Origin: Apostichopus japonicus
Taxonomy: Eukaryota > Echinodermata > Holothuroidea > Aspidochirotida > Stichopodidae
Direction of reading: 5' to 3'
Length of the DNA stretch: 64,000 nt
NCBI RefSeq assembly: GCF_037975245.1
Contig: NC_092567.1
Location: forward strand, 25,774,376 to 25,838,375
Shown: positions 9,394-40,302 of the stretch, one piece after another
Layout: every line of letters begins with the position of its first letter
Numbering within the stretch: the first letter of the stretch is position 1
Notes under the pieces: model-generated
Databases searched by the model: none
The model's input: the letters and a program-made list of their open reading frames with translations, nothing else
What the model was told of the DNA's origin: nothing
Made by a program: the position numbers and the translations under genes

Positions 9394-10281
<888 letters not shown>

Positions 10282-13237
10282 TACTTTTGCTTGTCATTCA
10301 ACGCGAAAAAGCAATACCGACTTTAATTGAATCTGAGAACACACATTCCCACAAACCTAGAATACTATGTTAATATTGGTCAGAAATCAAGAACCGAAGA
10401 ATACCTTTAAAGGTTTTTAAGTATTGTATTCGTTGTACCATATTTAGCAATATCAGAAAGTTTGCGTCACTTCATACCATGGCACAAATGGTATTTTCTA
10501 CATTTGGACGTGCCGCAAAGAATCGTATACCTAAGTTGAGGTGTAACGCGGAGCTAGTAGTGTAAGAAGACATGAAAGAATATGTTAGAACTGGCTATCT
10601 TTGCTCACTGTTTAGTGCAGCAGAGACTTCATTTTTCAGGAAATGTCATATATACCTTCTCATTCAAATATCAATTAATTTATTTGTCTGGCCATTACGA
10701 TACAGCGTAAGACTAATCTGCTGGCCTCCCTTCCTTTCTGCAACAGACCGCATTTCCTGACTTCAGTAACCTGTGGCAACGGCTGGTAAGTTTAATTACC
10801 ACTGTTGATGCCATCAGCTGCATGTGTTCGTCAATAGCGCACCAGCTAAAAGGTGTATAACTCAGAAAAAACAATGAAAATATTCGGTAGCGGGTCTAAC
10901 AAACATGGCGACTGTTATGACCAAGCCATGCAGTCAGTCCCCAACGAGCGAAATAATGAGCTCAGAGTTCAGTTTCTTGTAGCCCGCCCTCAACATTTCG
11001 TCAGACGTACGAAATTTAGCGAAACTGCTTGAGCCATACCCCTCAGGTTTAAATGTTTGAATAACGCAAAAGAAGGCGTCGCTAGCCACTATGACGCGGT
11101 AAGTTGAATCTTACAACATTTATTGTTCGTAATAAAACAGTGAACATTTCTATTTTTGTCGTACTTTCTGATAAATCCCCATTGAATTTGGCCCCTTTTT
11201 TCATGGCTACAAAAAGTGCCGTTTAATTTGCCGTAAACTTTACTTCGTTACTGAGGAGAGAAACGCACATGTTTAGTAAAATTGGCTAGATTAGATTATG
11301 CTCTATTTATTGATAAAAATTCGTGATTGGAAATGCACTATAGTCTTGTCAATAATCAACGTATTACGGCTAAAGACAGCGTTGTGTAATACAGATGTTA
11401 TGACTTTGTTTTGGCTCTGTGTGTACATGTAATGATGTACATTGCTTTAGTTTGTGGGAATGCCCATGTCAAACTATAAAAAACACAACTCATAGTCATT
11501 ATATTTCTACAGCCCTGAAAGGTAGGAGCAGAAAATGCTCATCTTCTTTCAACACATTATGCAAGCTCCGAAGATGACGTGTAGCCTAGGAAAATATTAC
11601 CTCACATTAACCACGGCAAAATGCCACTATATCCATGGTAAACTGTGATACATAACCACAATTTGACTTGGACATTTTGGTCCTATGGATGCAGTATACG
11701 ACAATTTTAACATAGTACCATGCCACATTTTACCATGGTTTATCACTTTCTATTTCATCTTCACCATGGTTTTATCTCAAATTTACCCTATATGTACCAT
11801 GGCATTGCCATAGTTTTACCCTAATTAACCACGATTTTACCCTATAGCCGTACCAAAGTTTACCCTAATGGTAACATGGTTTTACCCTAATTGTACGACA
11901 GTTTTACCCTAAATTTACCAGAGTTGTATCCCAATTGCACAGCTGTTTTCCCTACTTGTCTTAATTAAAATCAGTACACCACAAATAACATTAAATTTCA
12001 CCCATTGGTGAATTTTATCATTAATCGGGCTAGTTGAAATGTAACTGATATTACTATTTATTTCATGATGTCGTATGTATATAATGGCATACTAATTTGT
12101 ATGCACCAGATTTTTTGCTGGGAGTACATATAAAAATGTTCTTATATCTTATATAGGGTGAAAATGATAAGTTTTACCGAATTATATATTAATTAGGTGT
12201 GACGTCATGAAACGTCGTGAATATTCTACAAGAAAAGAAAGTACTTTTTCTCACCCTACGGGACTGACTGTATGAAAGGGCCACAGCAATGTAAGAGTAT
12301 GGTGGCGCTACTAACATTTTGCTTTGCTTAAACTTCAACAAAACGTTACACTGCCACCTTTTGATCACCTGTTGCTCTCTGAGACATGTTGTAATTGTCT
12401 AATTGAACTCTTCGCTTGGAATTTTGAGCATGCTAATTGGTGGCGCTATTAGTATTTTTCTCAAATTGACCAATTATATTTGTAACCAATTTCCTTTTTA
12501 AAAATTGTAGTCGAAGTTTCGAGCATGGAGCTTCTCTGTTGGTTATACTTCATGCAGTGGTGGTAGACAGTTGAATTAGTTTTCAAATACGTTTCCGGTT
12601 AGTTTTCTCGAGTCAGAAGAGGGACATAAAAGTACAGCTGTTCCAGAACCCTGGGGTTAATAAACGAAGTTCACTGCGGGATCTAAAGATTACCTAAACA
12701 TATACCTAATAAGCCCTGCAAACATTTGAACAAAAGATCATGTGCTCCTATTTCTGCGAACTTGAGGTTGCCCTAATAAGGATTCCGTTAAGCTTGCAAC
12801 TGGGAGTTGCTTTTCAAACTCAATACTTTAACCTACTTCCTGCACTATCAGACTCAGCGAGGTCTGAGGACCACCTGTGGGTGTGGATTCGGGGAAAAGT
12901 AACAAACAACTCCCTGGATAATAAAGCATCGAACAGATGTAAAAGTCATAAACAATTTATCAACATCCAGGGTTTCCCCTGAGGTCATTATCAGTAGGTC
13001 ATGGGCACACACTCTCAAAACTAGACTATATCTCTTTAGCATGTGTGTAACACAAAGCTACCAACCGAGCTCGTTCCATGACTGAGCCTTACTTTACTTT
13101 CTCCAAGCAGCCAGGACACACCTTGTAACACAAGTTATCGATCCGACCTGAATGTGCAAGAGTTTCACCTCCCTGGTTTCACAGTTTTTCGGATTATTGT
13201 TGCTTGTTTTTGTTTAGTTTCATTTACCAAACTCATC
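10282..13237. other. Upstream region of the fibrinogen-related gene; degenerate repeats only
   Basis: No coding exon recognised. From about 11590 to 11960 there is a degenerate tandem pattern of TTTACCCTAATTGTAC / ACCATGGT-like units of about 30 bp. About 12300-12470 is a diverged direct repeat of sequence at about 17100-17215, on the far side of exon 1 and the 84-bp array. The promoter of the downstream gene should lie near 13100-13237 but no core element is clear. Confidence 0.5.
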
Positions 13238-16200
13238 ATGAAGCTTAGTTTAGTTCTTGTTTTCGTCGTTGGTTCCATTTTCGTGTCGCACTTAGGAACT
13301 TCTTCTAGTAAGTCAATGGAAGCGAGGCAGGATGTAAGTATACACCATAATAATATATACGTCATAACTCAGTTTAAAGATCATCAGTGTTGTAAGTCAA
13401 TGACAGAGGTGCCAGATGTAAGTATACACCATAATAATATATACGTCATAACTCAGTTTAAAGATCATCAGTGTTGTAAGTCAATGACAGAGGTGCCAGA
13501 TGTAAGTATACACCATAATAATATATACGTCATAACTCAGTTTAAAGATCATCAGTGTTGTAAGTAAATGGCAGAGGTGCCAGATGTAAGTATACAATAT
13601 AATAATATATACGTCATAACTCAGTTTAAAGATCATCAGTGTTGTAAGTAAATGGCAGAGGTGCCAGATGTAAGTATACAATATAGTAATATATACGTCA
13701 TAACTCAGTTTAAAGATCATCAGTGTTGTAAGTCAATGACAGAGGTGCCAGATGTAAGTATACACCATAATAATATATACGTCATAACTCAGTTTAAAGA
13801 TCATCAGTGTTGTAAGTAAATGGCAGAGGTGCCAGATGTAAGTATACAATATAGTAATATATACGTCATAACTCAGTTTAAAGATCATCAGTGTTGTAAG
13901 TCAATGGCAGAGGTGCCAGATGTAAGTATACAATATAATAATATATACGTCATAACTCAGTTTAAAGATCATCAGTGTTGTAAGTCAATGACAGAGGTGC
14001 CAGATGTAAGTATACACCATAATAATATATACGTCATAACTCAGTTTAAAGATCATCAGTGTTGTAAGTCAATGACAGAGGTGCCAGATGTAAGTATACA
14101 CCATAATAATATATACGTCATAACTCAGTTTAAAGATCATCAGTGTTGTAAGTAAATGGCAGAGGTGCCAGATGTAAGTATACAATATAATAATATATAC
14201 GTCATAACTCAGTTTAAAGATCATCAGTGTTGTAAGTAAATGGCAGAGGTGCCAGATGTAAGTATACAATATAGTAATATATACGTCATAACTCAGTTTA
14301 AAGATCATCAGTGTTGTAAGTCAATGACAGAGGTGCCAGATGTAAGTATACACCATAATAATATATACGTCATAACTCAGTTTAAAGATCATCAGTGTTG
14401 TAAGTAAATGGCAGAGGTGCCAGATGTAAGTATACAATATAGTAATATATACGTCATAACTCAGTTTAAAGATCATCAGTGTTGTAAGTAAATGGCAGAG
14501 GTGCCAGATGTAAGTATACAATATAGTAATATATACGTCATAACTCAGTTTAAAGATCATCAGTGTTGTAAGTCAATGACAGAGGTGCCAGATGTAAGTA
14601 TACACCATAATAATATATACGTCATAACTCAGTTTAAAGATCATCAGTGTTGTAAGTAAATGGCAGAGGTGCCAGATGTAAGTATACAATATAGTAATAT
14701 ATACGTCATAACTCAGTTTAAAGATCATCAGTGTTGTAAGTAAATGGCAGAGGTGCCAGATGTAAGTATACAATATAATAATATATACGTCATAACTCAG
14801 TTTAAAGATCATCAGTGTTGTAAGTCAATGACAGAGGTGCCAGATGTAAGTATACACCATAATAATATGTACGTCATAACTCAGTTTAAAGATCATCAGT
14901 GTTGTAAGTCAATGACAGAGGTGCCAGATGTAAGTATACACCATAATAATATATACGTCATAACTCAGTTTAAAGATCATCAGTGTTGTAAGTAAATGGC
15001 AGAGGTGCCAGATGTAAGTATACAATATAGTAATATATACGTCATAACTCAGTTTAAAGATCATCAGTGTTGTAAGTCAATGACAGAGGTGCCAGATGTA
15101 AGTATACACCATAATAATATATACGTCATAACTCAGTTTAAAGATCATCAGTGTTGTAAGTAAATGGCAGAGGTGCCAGATGTAAGTATACAATATAGTA
15201 ATATATACGTCATAACTCAGTTTAAAGATCATCAGTGTTGTAAGTCAATGGCAGAGGTGCCAGATGTAAGTATACAATATAATAATATATACGTCATAAC
15301 TCAGTTTAAAGATCATCAGTGTTGTAAGTCAATGACAGAGGTGCCAGATGTAAGTATACACCATAATAATATATACGTCATAACTCAGTTTAAAGATCAT
15401 CAGTGTTGTAAGTCAATGACAGAGGTGCCAGATGTAAGTATACACCATAATAATATATACGTCATAACTCAGTTTAAAGATCATCAGTGTTGTAAGTAAA
15501 TGGCAGAGGTGCCAGATGTAAGTATACAATATAATAATATATACGTCATAACTCAGTTTAAAGATCATCAGTGTTGTAAGTAAATGGCAGAGGTGCCAGA
15601 TGTAAGTATACAATATAGTAATATATACGTCATAACTCAGTTTAAAGATCATCAGTGTTGTAAGTCAATGACAGAGGTGCCAGATGTAAGTATACACCAT
15701 AATAATATATACGTCATAACTCAGTTTAAAGATCATCAGTGTTGTAAGTAAATGGCAGAGGTGCCAGATGTAAGTATACAATATAGTAATATATACGTCA
15801 TAACTCAGTTTAAAGATCATCAGTGTTGTAAGTAAATGGCAGAGGTGCCAGATGTAAGTATACAATATAGTAATATATACGTCATAACTCAGTTTAAAGA
15901 TCATCAGTGTTGTAAGTCAATGACAGAGGTGCCAGATGTAAGTATACACCATAATAATATATACGTCATAACTCAGTTTAAAGATCATCAGTGTTGTAAG
16001 TAAATGGCAGAGGTGCCAGATGTAAGTATACAATATAGTAATATATACGTCATAACTCAGTTTAAAGATCATCAGTGTTGTAAGTAAATGGCAGAGGTGC
16101 CAGATGTAAGTATACAATATAATAATATATACGTCATAACTCAGTTTAAAGATCATCAGTGTTGTAAGTCAATGACAGAGGTGCCAGATGTAAGTATACA

Positions 16201-19200
16201 CCATAATAATATGTACGTCATAACTCAGTTTAAAGATCATCAGTGTTGTAAGTCAATGACAGAGGTGCCAGATGTAAGTATACACCATAATAATATATAC
16301 GTCATAACTCAGTTTAAAGATCATCAGTGTTGTAAGTAAATGGCAGAGGTGCCAGATGTAAGTATACAATATAGTAATATATACGTCATAACTCAGTTTA
16401 AAGATCATCAGTGTTGTAAGTCAATGGCAGAGGTGCCAGATGTAAGTATACAATATAATAATATATACGTCATAACTCAGTTTAAAGATCATCAGTGTTG
16501 TAAGTCAATGACAGAGGTGCCAGATGTAAGTATACACCATAATAATATATACGTCATAACTCAGTTTAAAGATCATCAGTGTTGTAAGTCAATGACAGAG
16601 GTGCCAGATGTAAGTATACACCATAATAATATATACGTCATAACTCAGTTTAAAGATCATCAGTGTTGTAAGTAAATGGCAGAGGTGCCAGATGTAAGTA
16701 TACAATATAATAATATATACGTCATAACTCAGTTTAAAGATCATCAGTGTTGTAAGTCAATGACAGAGGTGCCAGATGTAAGTATACACCATAATAATAT
16801 ATACGTCATAACTCAGTTTAAAGATCATCAGTGTTGTAAGTCAATGACAGAGGTGCCAGATGTAAGTATACACCATAATAATATATACGTCATAACTCAG
16901 TTTAAAGATCATCAGTGTTGTAAGTAAATGGCAGAGGTGCCAGATGTAAGTATACAATATAGTAATATATACGTCATAACTCAGTTTAAAGATCATCAGT
17001 GTTGTAAGTCAATGGCAGAGGTGCCTGATGTAAGTATACACCATAATAATATATACGTCATAACTCAGTTTAAAGATCATAAGTGTTGGCCGTAAATATG
17101 CTAGAATGTCTAATAATGGTCACTCATGTTCAAAACTTCAACAAACATGAACTGACCACCTTTCGATAATCTGTTGTTCTTTCAGACATTTAATTGAACT
17201 AATAGACTAATAGAATCGAAATTGAAATATAAATTAGTATATGATATATTTTATCCCCAGCACATCGATGAAGTAGATCATGTACAACCCATTTCAGTTT
17301 CTACTTCAACAGGTATGTTTAGCTCCTATATAAAGGTGATTGGCCTTCTCCTCACACAACGGGACCACCGTAACTTTCTCATTTATAAGAGTCATCTATC
17401 AGCCATTTATTACGCTTCCGTAATTTATAACTTAAGGCCAAGTAACGTCAACGTACTGTAGAATTTGTTTTTCCAGGAAATGCAATAAGATAGATCGCCA
17501 GCTGTTTCACGATATAAAACTAAAAAAATATCAGTGGGTCAGGAAAAACAAATCTCTGAAGGGACTGAGATCGGTCATAAATGTAAGAATTAAGTAGAAC
17601 CCAAAATTTAAGCTTTTATTGTCGTTTTGAGCAATATGTTTACGCGTCTTCTCCACCCACCCTCCCCCCCCCCGACACCCGCCAGGTCTTCTGTCCCCAC
17701 GAATCTTAAGGAAAATGTGAAACGTATCCCCATTCTATGAACTGTAAGATCAATGTATGACGTAGCTTCGTGTGGATCTTAAGCAAGAATATATAAAACC
17801 TTTGGCATTAAATGGCCATAATCATTTTGGTATTTCATAATTCCGATATTTTGGTTCAATCATTATAGATACTGGCTATTGTCACTCATCTCGGTCTGAA
17901 TATCGGAGAGATTGTCGAGAAATCTATGAGAAATGTGATAATTTCGAAGGACGATCTGGCACTTACATGATACAACCAAGTGGTTCACCAGAACCATTCC
18001 AAGTATATTGTAACAATTCCATTGATGGAGGTAGCTGGACGGTACGTAGTTTTATGTTATACTAAATGTAATAAAATGCTACATTGCGTGTTATATTTGG
18101 TTAATATCATCTGGGGAGTAGATAGACTTTGTTATTGATTTATTTATCATTACCATTGATGAGGGGGGGGGGGCAGATGCTTTTCTAGGGGGCAGTCGAA
18201 ATATATTTTCTAAATTATTGTTTCAGACAATTTTATGTATTTCTTGGGTGGGGGTGGGGGGCTAGACAAATATTCGTAGGGGCTAGCCTCCCTCCCCTCC
18301 GTGGCTACACCGGTGAATTTGTTTTTAAGTTAAATATGTCAATTCTTAAGATACAATATGACATGCACTGTCCCTTCCTCTTCCATCGACTAACCCCTCC
18401 CTCCCCCCTCACCACCGATATGACCGCCAGGGACGAGACACATTCAGACTTATTAGCGTCAAATAATTGGGGATATTTCCTGCAGATAGCATAAATTATA
18501 AAGTTGAAGGACGAAGGTTTCCATGCACACATGTTTGAGGCCAAGGTCTCCTCTCACGACTTAACAACTTAACCCCTGGTCAATGGTTACTTGCCACACC
18601 AACACACCATGTGCACTATTCAAACAATCCCTCCTGTGTTACTACAGTGCACCATATCTACGTACGGTCCCCTATACTGGACTTTCCATAAGGTACAGCG
18701 ACAAACCGACAAACCCATTTACATACCTGGGTGAAGAGAGGCAATGTAGATAAAGTGCCTTGCCCAAGGACACAACGTAATGATATGGCCAGGACTCGAA
18801 CCTGCAATCCTTAGATCACAAGTCCACTGCCTTAACCATTTGACCACAACGCTCTCTCCAAATTATACCTTAAAGAAAAACATTTCGTGATACCTCTACT
18901 TATTACCATCATTTTTAACTTATTATCTTTTGGCAGGTAATTCAGCGTCGATTGGATGGCTCGGTGGACTTTTATCGTACCTGGAGCGAGTACAAGAAAG
19001 GATTTGGCTTTCTGGAAAGAGACTTTTGGCTTGGCAACGATAAATTATCCTTCCTGACCAGTCAAAAGGACTACGAATTGCGCATTGACATGAATAACCA
19101 CGAAGGTGTTTCATATGTTGTTAAATATAGTCTCTTTCGTGTTAGCGACGAATGGAGCAAGTACAAGTTGATCCTCGGTGATTATTTAGCTGAGAGCACT

Positions 19201-20304
19201 GCAGGTAAATTAACGTAACAGCGAAGAAAAAAAATTATCCTTCTAGATTCAGTTACATCATTCTGAACATGAGCTAAAGGCATAAAGGCCTTATATACAA
19301 ATGATGCCTAATATCATTTTCATCTAGAAATGTCCCTAAAACCTAATGGATTTTGAGTGATATAAACTCTGACATCTCACAATTATTGTATGTGTGTCAT
19401 TGCGCAACGTAATCATGAAATTTGGTATTCTACATTATTAAGGCCCTTAGCAAAGAACTATGAGTTGGGGGCTATGGGGGTGTGGGGGGGGTGGTCACAA
19501 ACAACTTAAAGGAGGGCAACAATATGTGTGTACACATGATGTAGGCACGACAGAGGATAAGGAGGAACATTAGCTAACACGAGGGCCAGAGATCTGTGCC
19601 ACAGCAAGAAGCTATTCCGGAAGTTGTTAAATGACGGCTCTCTGGTTTGATCTATTCCTGTACACCGAGAGGATAAGATAAAGTGACCAACCCTAGATCT
19701 TAACTAGGGGTATAGTCCGTATGAGCTGTACTGTGCCTCTAATTAATATGTTTCTGATCAATCGATTAAGCATCTTCTCTATGTTTGGTTTGGTTTAAGA
19801 TTTGCGATAATAATTAATGCAAATTCACAAAGCTTAATTTGTCATAATTATAAAAAAAAGTAGAATTTTTCGTATTTCGCGAATACGAAGCACAATAGCG
19901 GTGTAAGTTCAGTTGCATGGAATTTCAGATCAAAAGTATGATGCATTTATGATGTATTTCTCTATATTCCCCTCGTTCTGATGAATAGCCCTTTAATGTT
20001 TAAAAAAAATTGATAACACCACACACACACATCTTATTTTTCCCTTTTCTTGTATATAGAAAGTGACTCTTTGTCGTATCACAGTAACATGGCATTCAGT
20101 ACCTACGACCGGGACAACGATCTCAACGGAGGTAACTGCCCCATCTTACACGGTAGTGCTTGGTGGTACAATTCCTGTGATTATTCTGATCTCAACGCTG
20201 ACTATTTCGCTGCCGATGGAGTAGATCAAAGCATCGAATGGACGGGCCTACCAGGGGGAAGTTACAACCTCAAGTTTGTAGAAATGAAAGTGAGAGCTCT
20301 GTAG
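13238..20304 (+). CDS. Secreted fibrinogen-related protein (FReD lectin)
   Basis: Exons 13238-13333, 17261-17312, 17869-18041, 18937-19204 and 20060-20304 join in frame (junction phases 0, 1, 0, 1) into 277 residues. Residues 1-20 or so are a signal peptide (MKLSLVLVFVVGSIFVSHLG). About 63-277 form one fibrinogen C-terminal domain. It shows the cysteine pair C65/C97, the block DGSVDFYRTWSEYKKGFG, the calcium-site motif STYDRDNDL (Asp213, Asp215), C223/C236 around AWWYNSC, and a final KFVEMKVRAL. In ficolins, tenascins and invertebrate FREPs this domain binds acetylated or other glycans, so a secreted recognition lectin is likely. There is no collagen or coiled-coil region; the 30-residue linker is short. 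Intron 1 is occupied by the 84-bp array. A possible poly(A) signal is at 20934. Confidence 0.9.
13331..17090 (+). repeat. 84-bp satellite array, 45 units, seeded at a splice donor
   Basis: Units start with GATGTAAGTATACA at 13331 and recur at exactly 84-bp steps to the last at 17027 (44 steps, no indel seen). The first unit begins at the 3' edge of exon 1 of the fibrinogen-related gene. The tail of each unit (TTGTAAGTCAATGACAGAGG...) is a diverged copy of the end of that exon, 20 of 28 positions matching by eye. Variants are CACCATAATAAT, CAATATAATAAT or CAATATAGTAAT in the front half, and TCAATG or TAAATG in the linker. Each unit carries two GTAAGT motifs. Since 84 is divisible by three, open frames appear but TAAATG units stop them. 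Confidence 0.95.
18130..18310. other. G-rich and C-rich tract in intron 3, possible MITE remnant
   Basis: A run of 12 G's (18161-18172), internal G tracts and a C-rich right side ending CTCCGTGGCTACACC look like the other poly-G MITEs in this window. No matching target duplication was found. Confidence 0.3.
18570..18852 (-). mobile_element. tRNA-derived SINE, family 1
   Basis: On the minus strand it begins near 18852 with a tRNA-like head: A box TGGTCAAATGGTTAAGGCA and an intact B box GGTTCGAGTCC. This is followed by GTGTCCTTGGGCAAGGCACT, which resembles the conserved central domains shared between SINE families of many marine animals (from memory). It sits in intron 3 of the fibrinogen-related gene, antisense to it. 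The second copy is at 7785-8027. Confidence 0.85.
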
Positions 20305-21191
20305 GTAAAAGCCTATACAGCAACGTGTCGATTGGCGATTGGTCAGCAGCGACTAAACTACACGCGTAGCATATTTAGCAGGACTATAGTCAGTTTAAAG
20401 GTCTATATACATCACTCGTTTCGTGACGTCATTAATCACATAAATAACGACAAGTGCTACCAAATTCCGCATAATTGTGGAAAACTATATAGGCCCACTG
20501 AAAGACTAAGAACTTAAGCGACTTAACGCATAATAATTTTAAATTTGTCACTCTAGTCAGATCTGATATTTGGAGTCTTGTCGTGTATTGCACACTCCCG
20601 TGAACCATCATAGATAACGCATTACCATATCAATTTAGGCGTATAGATCACTATACTTTTATTAACGTATTTTCATTATCACAAATTTATAAAAAAAAAA
20701 CTTAGCTCCAAAAAATATACACATTACTTGTAAAGTACTTGTTAAGTTACCTTAACACTCTTAAATCGTATCATCCCCGTAACATGATTTGCTCATTTCT
20801 TCATTACGTAGTGAATACCGTACATATTCGCATTTCGCGTAACATATCTGTTTTCTCTCAGCGCTAGAAAAAAAAAGATTTACATTAAGAGCAGCTAAAC
20901 GCATTATGGTTCAACAATACAGCCTGGCTTAAAAATAAAGTTTTATTTTACAATATTGTTAGTCGAAATGTATTTTTGTTCCTCTGATTTTTTATTAATT
21001 AATTAAAAGTAATACCACACAAAATTGTCTGGTCGATTAATTGTTGAGACTCGAATTTTGCTTAATTTTTGTAAACTTTTCTGCTCATATTTATGTGAGT
21101 GCTCTTTCCGTTAGCAAAAAATAAAAGTCATTTCTCGATATGTTCCAGGGTCCTTATCTTTGGTCTGCTGTGGTAGTATAACACATGTCCT
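20305..21191. other. 3' flank of the fibrinogen-related gene
   Basis: Presumed 3' untranslated region followed by AT-rich intergenic DNA. AATAAA at 20934-20939, followed by a T-rich stretch, is the best poly(A) signal candidate. No other gene is visible. Confidence 0.5.

Positions 21192-32068: not shown

Positions 32069-40302
<8,234 letters not shown>

Follow-up and report, generated by a model that had tools for sequence, protein, structure and literature searches.

A tandem array of 84-bp units that carries the exon 1 splice donor in a fibrinogen-like gene of Apostichopus japonicus

Introduction

A minisatellite reportedly provides multiple splice donors in an interferon-induced transcript, as the title of Turri et al. 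(1995, NAR 23:1854) has it, and the gene concerned is said to be human 6-16/IFI6 (G1P3), which fits the papers that cite that work. In intron 18 of human ABCA7, a 25-bp variable number tandem repeat (VNTR) of ~12 to ~427 units is described, the exon 18 donor being its first GT; retention of one unit via the donor of the next is put at ~2% in the tissues tested, unaffected by array length, and skipping of exon 19 is reported to have risen with VNTR length (PMC5954066). For the polyubiquitin gene UBC, AGGT is described as acting both as donor and as acceptor, thereby delimiting the coding monomers (PMC10809524), and reports of intron gain by tandem genomic duplication are at hand as well (PMC4974935, PMC3443670). 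Here we describe an 84-bp tandem array that runs from exon 1 into intron 1 of a fibrinogen-like gene of Apostichopus japonicus, encoded on the + strand of a 64,000-nucleotide stretch of DNA (C7:25774376-25838375; hereafter the window, from whose first base positions are counted).

Results

The repeat starts inside exon 1

Both Tandem Repeats Finder (TRF) and a register-by-register cut of the array yielded 45 units without indels, in line with an initial annotation made from the sequence alone. That annotation had also placed the seed of the array at the exon 1 donor, GAT/GTAAGT (a slash marks the exon border). The array indeed includes this donor, but its first unit starts 26 nt further upstream, inside exon 1, at 13308.

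13308..17088, + strand: 84-bp tandem array (TRF: period 84, 45.0 copies, 96% matches, 0% indels)
13238..13333, + strand: coding part of exon 1, 32 codons with a signal-peptide-like start (MKLSLVLVFVVGSIFVSHLG...), ending in GAT, phase 0
13308..13333, + strand: the 26 exonic nt of repeat unit 1, from the in-register comparison of units

Likeness to the units ends at 13308, the 30 nt further upstream matching at 8/30, which is chance level. Compared in register, the last 26 nt of exon 1 agree with 40 of the 44 other units at 19/26 positions and with the remaining 4 at 20/26. As a control, 120,368 other 26-mers of the window (both strands, array excluded) were compared with units 2 and 45 as the references; none reached 19, the maximum being 18 against unit 2 and 17 against unit 45. 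A free local alignment of exon 1 with the unit recovered only the first 11 bases, at a score that 18 of 20,000 shuffles reached, and is weaker evidence. Thus, the claim that each unit ends in a diverged copy of the exon's 3′ end is borne out by the in-register similarity and by the control with other 26-mers of the window, and more weakly by the free alignment, while the 20 of 28 matches counted by eye are replaced by the figures above.

Unit 1 differs from the type-B unit (18 units, e.g. unit 2) by seven mismatches, all of which fall in the 26 exonic nt and none in the next 58 nt (P = 1.5e-4 under random placement). Judged from sequence, this clustering fits an intronic part that was homogenised and a coding part that was held apart, albeit short of proof.

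The units are nearly uniform and were in part copied as a block

Seven distinct unit sequences make up the array, in 18, 14, 6, 3, 2, 1 and 1 copies. Six columns differ in two or more of units 2-45, and another two in unit 45 only. Shifting the array against itself by 16 units brings 1,484 identical bases into one run, and the order of the units repeats along with the shift, which together argue for a recent block duplication. Edge units usually escape homogenisation in tandem arrays. The key type CGCCAA was found in units 1 and 45 alone, i.e. at both edges, as expected if these had escaped homogenisation here, and the 12-mer GTAAGTCAATGG is common to exon 1, the last unit (45) and the inner units 8, 24 and 38.

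No unit copies were seen outside the array: an exact 31-base pattern gave 20 matches in the genome, all within the array, and a search with the unit at E 0.05 returned none in 39 of 51 fetched loci (206,451 bases, some overlapping), the 12 loci belonging to the array gene having been left out. Three units folded together (252 nt) gave a z of 0.14, so that their RNA structure is not unusual. Every unit also holds an AGGT (CAGAGGTGCC), which is distinct from the repeated donor.

The true donor has 44 look-alikes, most of which lead to premature stops

GTAAGT occurs 90 times in the array and 13 times elsewhere on the + strand of the window. The initial annotation had counted about 90 such motifs, two per unit, and took them for decoys in intron 1; the number holds, whereas only 88 of them are decoys, since the GTAAGT at 13308 is exonic and that at 13334 is the true donor. 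Two donor types recur per unit, GAT/GT and GTT/GT. The 45 GAT/GTAAGTAT sites do not differ at any position from -3 to +8, and of the 11-mer that covers these positions in the true donor, GATGTAAGTAT, the + strand of the window has 45 occurrences, all within the array. As a statement about sequence, the proposed field of decoy donors is therefore upheld, with 44 extra copies identical to the true site over this span.

13334..13339, + strand: predicted exon 1 donor GAT/GTAAGT, the only one of the 90 array donors to give the plain 277-aa frame
13418..13423, + strand: first of the decoys that share the true donor's sequence, adding 28 codons in frame
13502..13507, + strand: second in-frame decoy donor, adding 56 codons
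13565..13567, + strand: first in-frame TAA, in unit 4; the GAT/GT decoys from 13586 on all lie beyond it
17089..17260, + strand: last 172 nt of intron 1, outside the repeat and ending at the acceptor
17261..17312, + strand: exon 2, from frame and splice motifs

Joined to exon 2, the true donor gives a product of 277 residues, 13418 one of 305 and 13502 one of 333. In contrast to these two decoys, the other 42 of the 44 GAT/GT look-alikes lead to a premature stop, as do all 45 donors of the second type, including the one inside exon 1 (13308), from which the frame is shifted. Pairing with the U1 tail was computed at -7.3 kcal/mol for the true donor and its first copy, with the same letters in the other GAT/GT copies, and at -5.4 or -7.0 kcal/mol for the second site of the unit. 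Of the 601 GT in the gene, 45 within the array and 4 beyond it equal or exceed the exon 1 donor by human donor weights. Scores from these weights and from the U1 tail are rough; the exact-match counts are independent of them.

We found no sign that the decoys are under selection, and the donor columns are conserved no more than chance would have it (P = 0.27 that none of the 8 variable columns falls in the 12 donor columns). In units 2-45, column 7, directly after the weaker donor, is C 24 times and A 20 times, so the context of this donor varies.

Other uses of the unit were considered. It could be read as an in-phase 30-nt pseudo-exon, CAG/TGTTGTAAG...CAGAT/GTAAGT, which is not favoured because its would-be acceptor has 7/15 pyrimidines, compared with 9, 10, 11 and 12/15 in the four acceptors of the gene. 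A coding repeat in place of an intron is not favoured beyond the first units, as the array contains 20 stops when read in the frame of exon 1. Nor does the intron appear to have been created by the tandem duplication, as the intron continues for 172 non-repeated nt past the array and its two ends thus do not both lie in copies.

The gene and its surroundings

With exon limits set by eye from reading frame and splice motifs, exons 1-5 join into a frame of 277 codons with no internal stop. The protein matches Fibrinogen_C of Pfam (PF00147; E 5.9e-63, residues 62-275), and for exon 4 ficolins are, by sequence, the nearest solved structures. The frame-fitting acceptor of intron 1, at 17260, lies outside the array. 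The remaining exons are as follows.

17869..18041, + strand: exon 3, from frame and splice motifs
18937..19204, + strand: exon 4, from frame and splice motifs
20060..20304, + strand: exon 5 including the stop codon, from frame and splice motifs

The tail of intron 1 (about 17133-17190) is ~81% like an upstream stretch, 12330-12387, over 59 aligned bases, and is perhaps part of a dispersed repeat. Some 3 kb 5′ of the gene lies an 888-bp ATG-rich array (9394-10281; TRF: 148 copies of 6 bp, 83% matches). In intron 3, the - strand of 18786-18848 shows a weak tRNA-like match (29.5 bits against a gathering threshold of 29), the only Rfam match over 12000-21000 and perhaps the remnant of a short interspersed nuclear element.

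Three paralogs repeat the end of exon 4

Expansion of the fibrinogen-related family and its rise in visceral regeneration are reported in an earlier genome paper (PMC5638244). Fibrinogen-domain exons are many in the genome; among the matches listed, C9 holds most and those on C7 are the gene's own exons. Our survey scored 150 of 2,553 candidates, and the loci examined are the best 30 of these 150. No relatives were found within 20 kb beyond either end of the window, where the best protein matches had E values of 0.29 (exon 1), 0.34 (whole protein) and 0.058 (28-residue repeat peptide); at the DNA level, one 20-base match to the intron tail was returned (E 0.035).

In three of the nearest paralogs (C9, 18.743-18.771 Mb), the last ~75 nt of exon 4 and its donor region recur in intron 4, although GTAAGT is not kept in every copy.

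L044, 7710-7875 (reverse complement, which is the gene's orientation): one extra copy of the exon 4 end in intron 4
L045, 7351-7810 (reverse complement, gene orientation): three extra copies, two found by tblastn and a shorter one by eye
L046, 7349-7680 (reverse complement, gene orientation): two extra copies, one with an in-frame stop

Among the best 30 of the 150 loci, an exon 4 tail is recognised at E 0.01 in 26 paralogs, with extra copies present in 3 of these and absent from 23; of the other four loci, three are the array gene itself and one (L016) has no tail match. Because the three paralogs are neighbours, their copies may go back to one ancestral event. It is very unlikely that exon ends and donors of this family are repeatedly amplified in introns, with copy number tuning the amount of full-length mRNA and adding optional N-terminal repeats. 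Six of eight fetched paralog regions were scanned for a signal exon, which gave one candidate in each of four and none in two; by eye, these candidates bear no likeness to the unit and neither support nor refute a direction of copying between exon and array.

Discussion

A probable duplication across the exon 1/intron 1 junction

The locus is best, and quite probably, explained by an 84-bp tandem duplication across the junction of exon 1 and intron 1, followed by expansion in blocks. The founding duplication would have spanned 26 nt of exon, the donor and 58 nt of intron of the fibrinogen-domain gene. Lying outside the coding exon, the copy would then have been free to diverge, while exon 1 kept or gained a sequence of its own. 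Unequal exchange or replication slippage, we infer, expanded the intronic copies and homogenised them in blocks. Donor 13334, nearest to the cap, would be expected to be the most used. The unit copies would be bound by the U1 small nuclear ribonucleoprotein to some degree, so that exon 2 would be joined to a downstream unit in a small share of transcripts. The first two units used in this way would give products in frame and longer by 28 or 56 residues, and the remainder would carry a stop and be removed by decay. In favour of this account stand the indel-free 84-bp register with 7 distinct units in 45, the in-register exon tail, the 12-mer and the key type seen at the array edges, the 1,484-base match at a 16-unit shift, a like event at the end of exon 4 in three close paralogs, and the ~2% use of the next unit's donor reported for ABCA7 (PMC5954066). 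Most likely, then, the array is a recent and largely neutral expansion. The initial annotation had left neutral expansion and slower or more diverse splicing side by side, and neutrality fits better than an adapted function, given the chance-level conservation of donor columns (P = 0.27), the stops after 42/44 and 45/45 donors and the unremarkable fold (z 0.14).

Several points weigh against this account. Compared with unit types C to F, unit 1 also differs at 1 to 3 intronic positions, and the mismatches in the exon could, by eye, reflect two offsetting indels and fewer changes. The direction of copying, from exon to array or from array to exon, is not proven; a protein query with exon 1 against the whole genome led to one scored candidate, the gene itself. 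Part of the unit, moreover, resembles a 274-bp repeat at 33474 with a score of 28, a comparison picked after the fact, for which controls gave maxima of 22 in 500 shuffles and 23 among other parts of the window. The unit may thus be derived in part from a repeat, which is suggestive only. The repeat at 33474-34023 is itself a tandem dimer of 274 bp, whose start (TATATAAACGTCATAACACA) is like the intronic part of the 84-bp unit.

Alternative explanations

Were the array to have arisen first within the intron, exon 1 would have been lengthened as its donor slid into the first unit, and the tail of the exon would be repeat-derived. The candidate signal exons of four paralogs are indeed shorter (75, 81, 81 and 84 nt, compared with 96 nt here), and an upstream GTAAGT sits within exon 1 after the 70th coding base. 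Yet splicing from that site, 13308, shifts the frame into a stop, the paralog exons are candidates from a motif scan, all four of which end in phase 0 as does 13334, and L046, in a stretch 89% identical, lacks the donor of the 75-nt exon of L044; we consider this order of events fairly unlikely. A different proposal is that the decoys form a regulatory device, in which U1 sites would strengthen the definition of exon 1 or delay its splicing, with a strength set by copy number. The identity of the 45 donors from -3 to +8 speaks for such a device, as do reports that exon definition can be enhanced by U1 binding just 3′ of the natural donor (PMC5933811) and that the next exon is skipped more in association with longer ABCA7 VNTR alleles (PMC5954066). 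The lack of conservation of the donor columns beyond chance, the variation at column 7 in the context of the weaker donor and the report that use of the ABCA7 unit donor is unchanged by array length (PMC5954066) render it, as far as sequence can tell, unlikely.

Since 84 is divisible by 3 and donors 13418 and 13502 yield full-length frames (305 and 333 residues), the array might instead serve to supply optional residues at the N-terminus, in the form of a 28-residue repeat, single or double, that follows the signal peptide. This is highly improbable, however, as only 2 of the 44 decoys give a full-length frame, a TAA stands in the exon 1 frame in 20 of the 44 units after unit 1, and the recurrent variable columns, inspected by hand, all alter a residue or create a stop, with no sign of protein constraint. 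That the array is an artefact of assembly is scarcely credible: the unit variants are ordered, a 16-unit higher-order copy is present, and the high-fidelity (HiFi) reads that are the likely source are reported with a mean of 14.7 kb (PMC10344927), longer than the 3.8-kb array.

One true donor and 44 copies identical to it from -3 to +8 are spaced at strictly 84 nt, so that the locus offers a natural experiment on how the spliceosome chooses among donors by position when their sequence is the same. An exon end carried along with a minisatellite is, moreover, a possible early step towards exon extension or the formation of a pseudo-exon.

Comparison with known systems

No paper on this array was found by word match in the open-access part of PubMed Central. 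Its kind, a tandem repeat linked to a donor, is already known from human genes, as both ABCA7 and IFI6 have donor-linked minisatellites. UBC, as described, resembles it in that every tandem unit carries a splice site, but the repeated donor here reads T/GT rather than the dual-specific AG/GT, and the acceptor lies 172 nt past the array. With the reported cases of intron gain, the locus shares a tandem duplication across a splice-site-like sequence; unlike in those, an intron was lengthened here, with its acceptor outside the repeat. As in the published description of the ABCA7 VNTR, the first unit of an intronic array holds the canonical donor of the upstream exon: the array covers the frame-fitting donor 13334, and the donor sequence is present in 45/45 units. 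In contrast, the 84-bp unit takes in 26 nt of exon, whereas the first two nucleotides of the ABCA7 array are described as the donor itself, and 84 bp keep the frame that a retained 25-bp ABCA7 unit breaks. Thus, as far as the literature was searched, what the present array adds to this known kind is a unit of 84 bp that includes exon sequence and keeps the frame, in an echinoderm setting.

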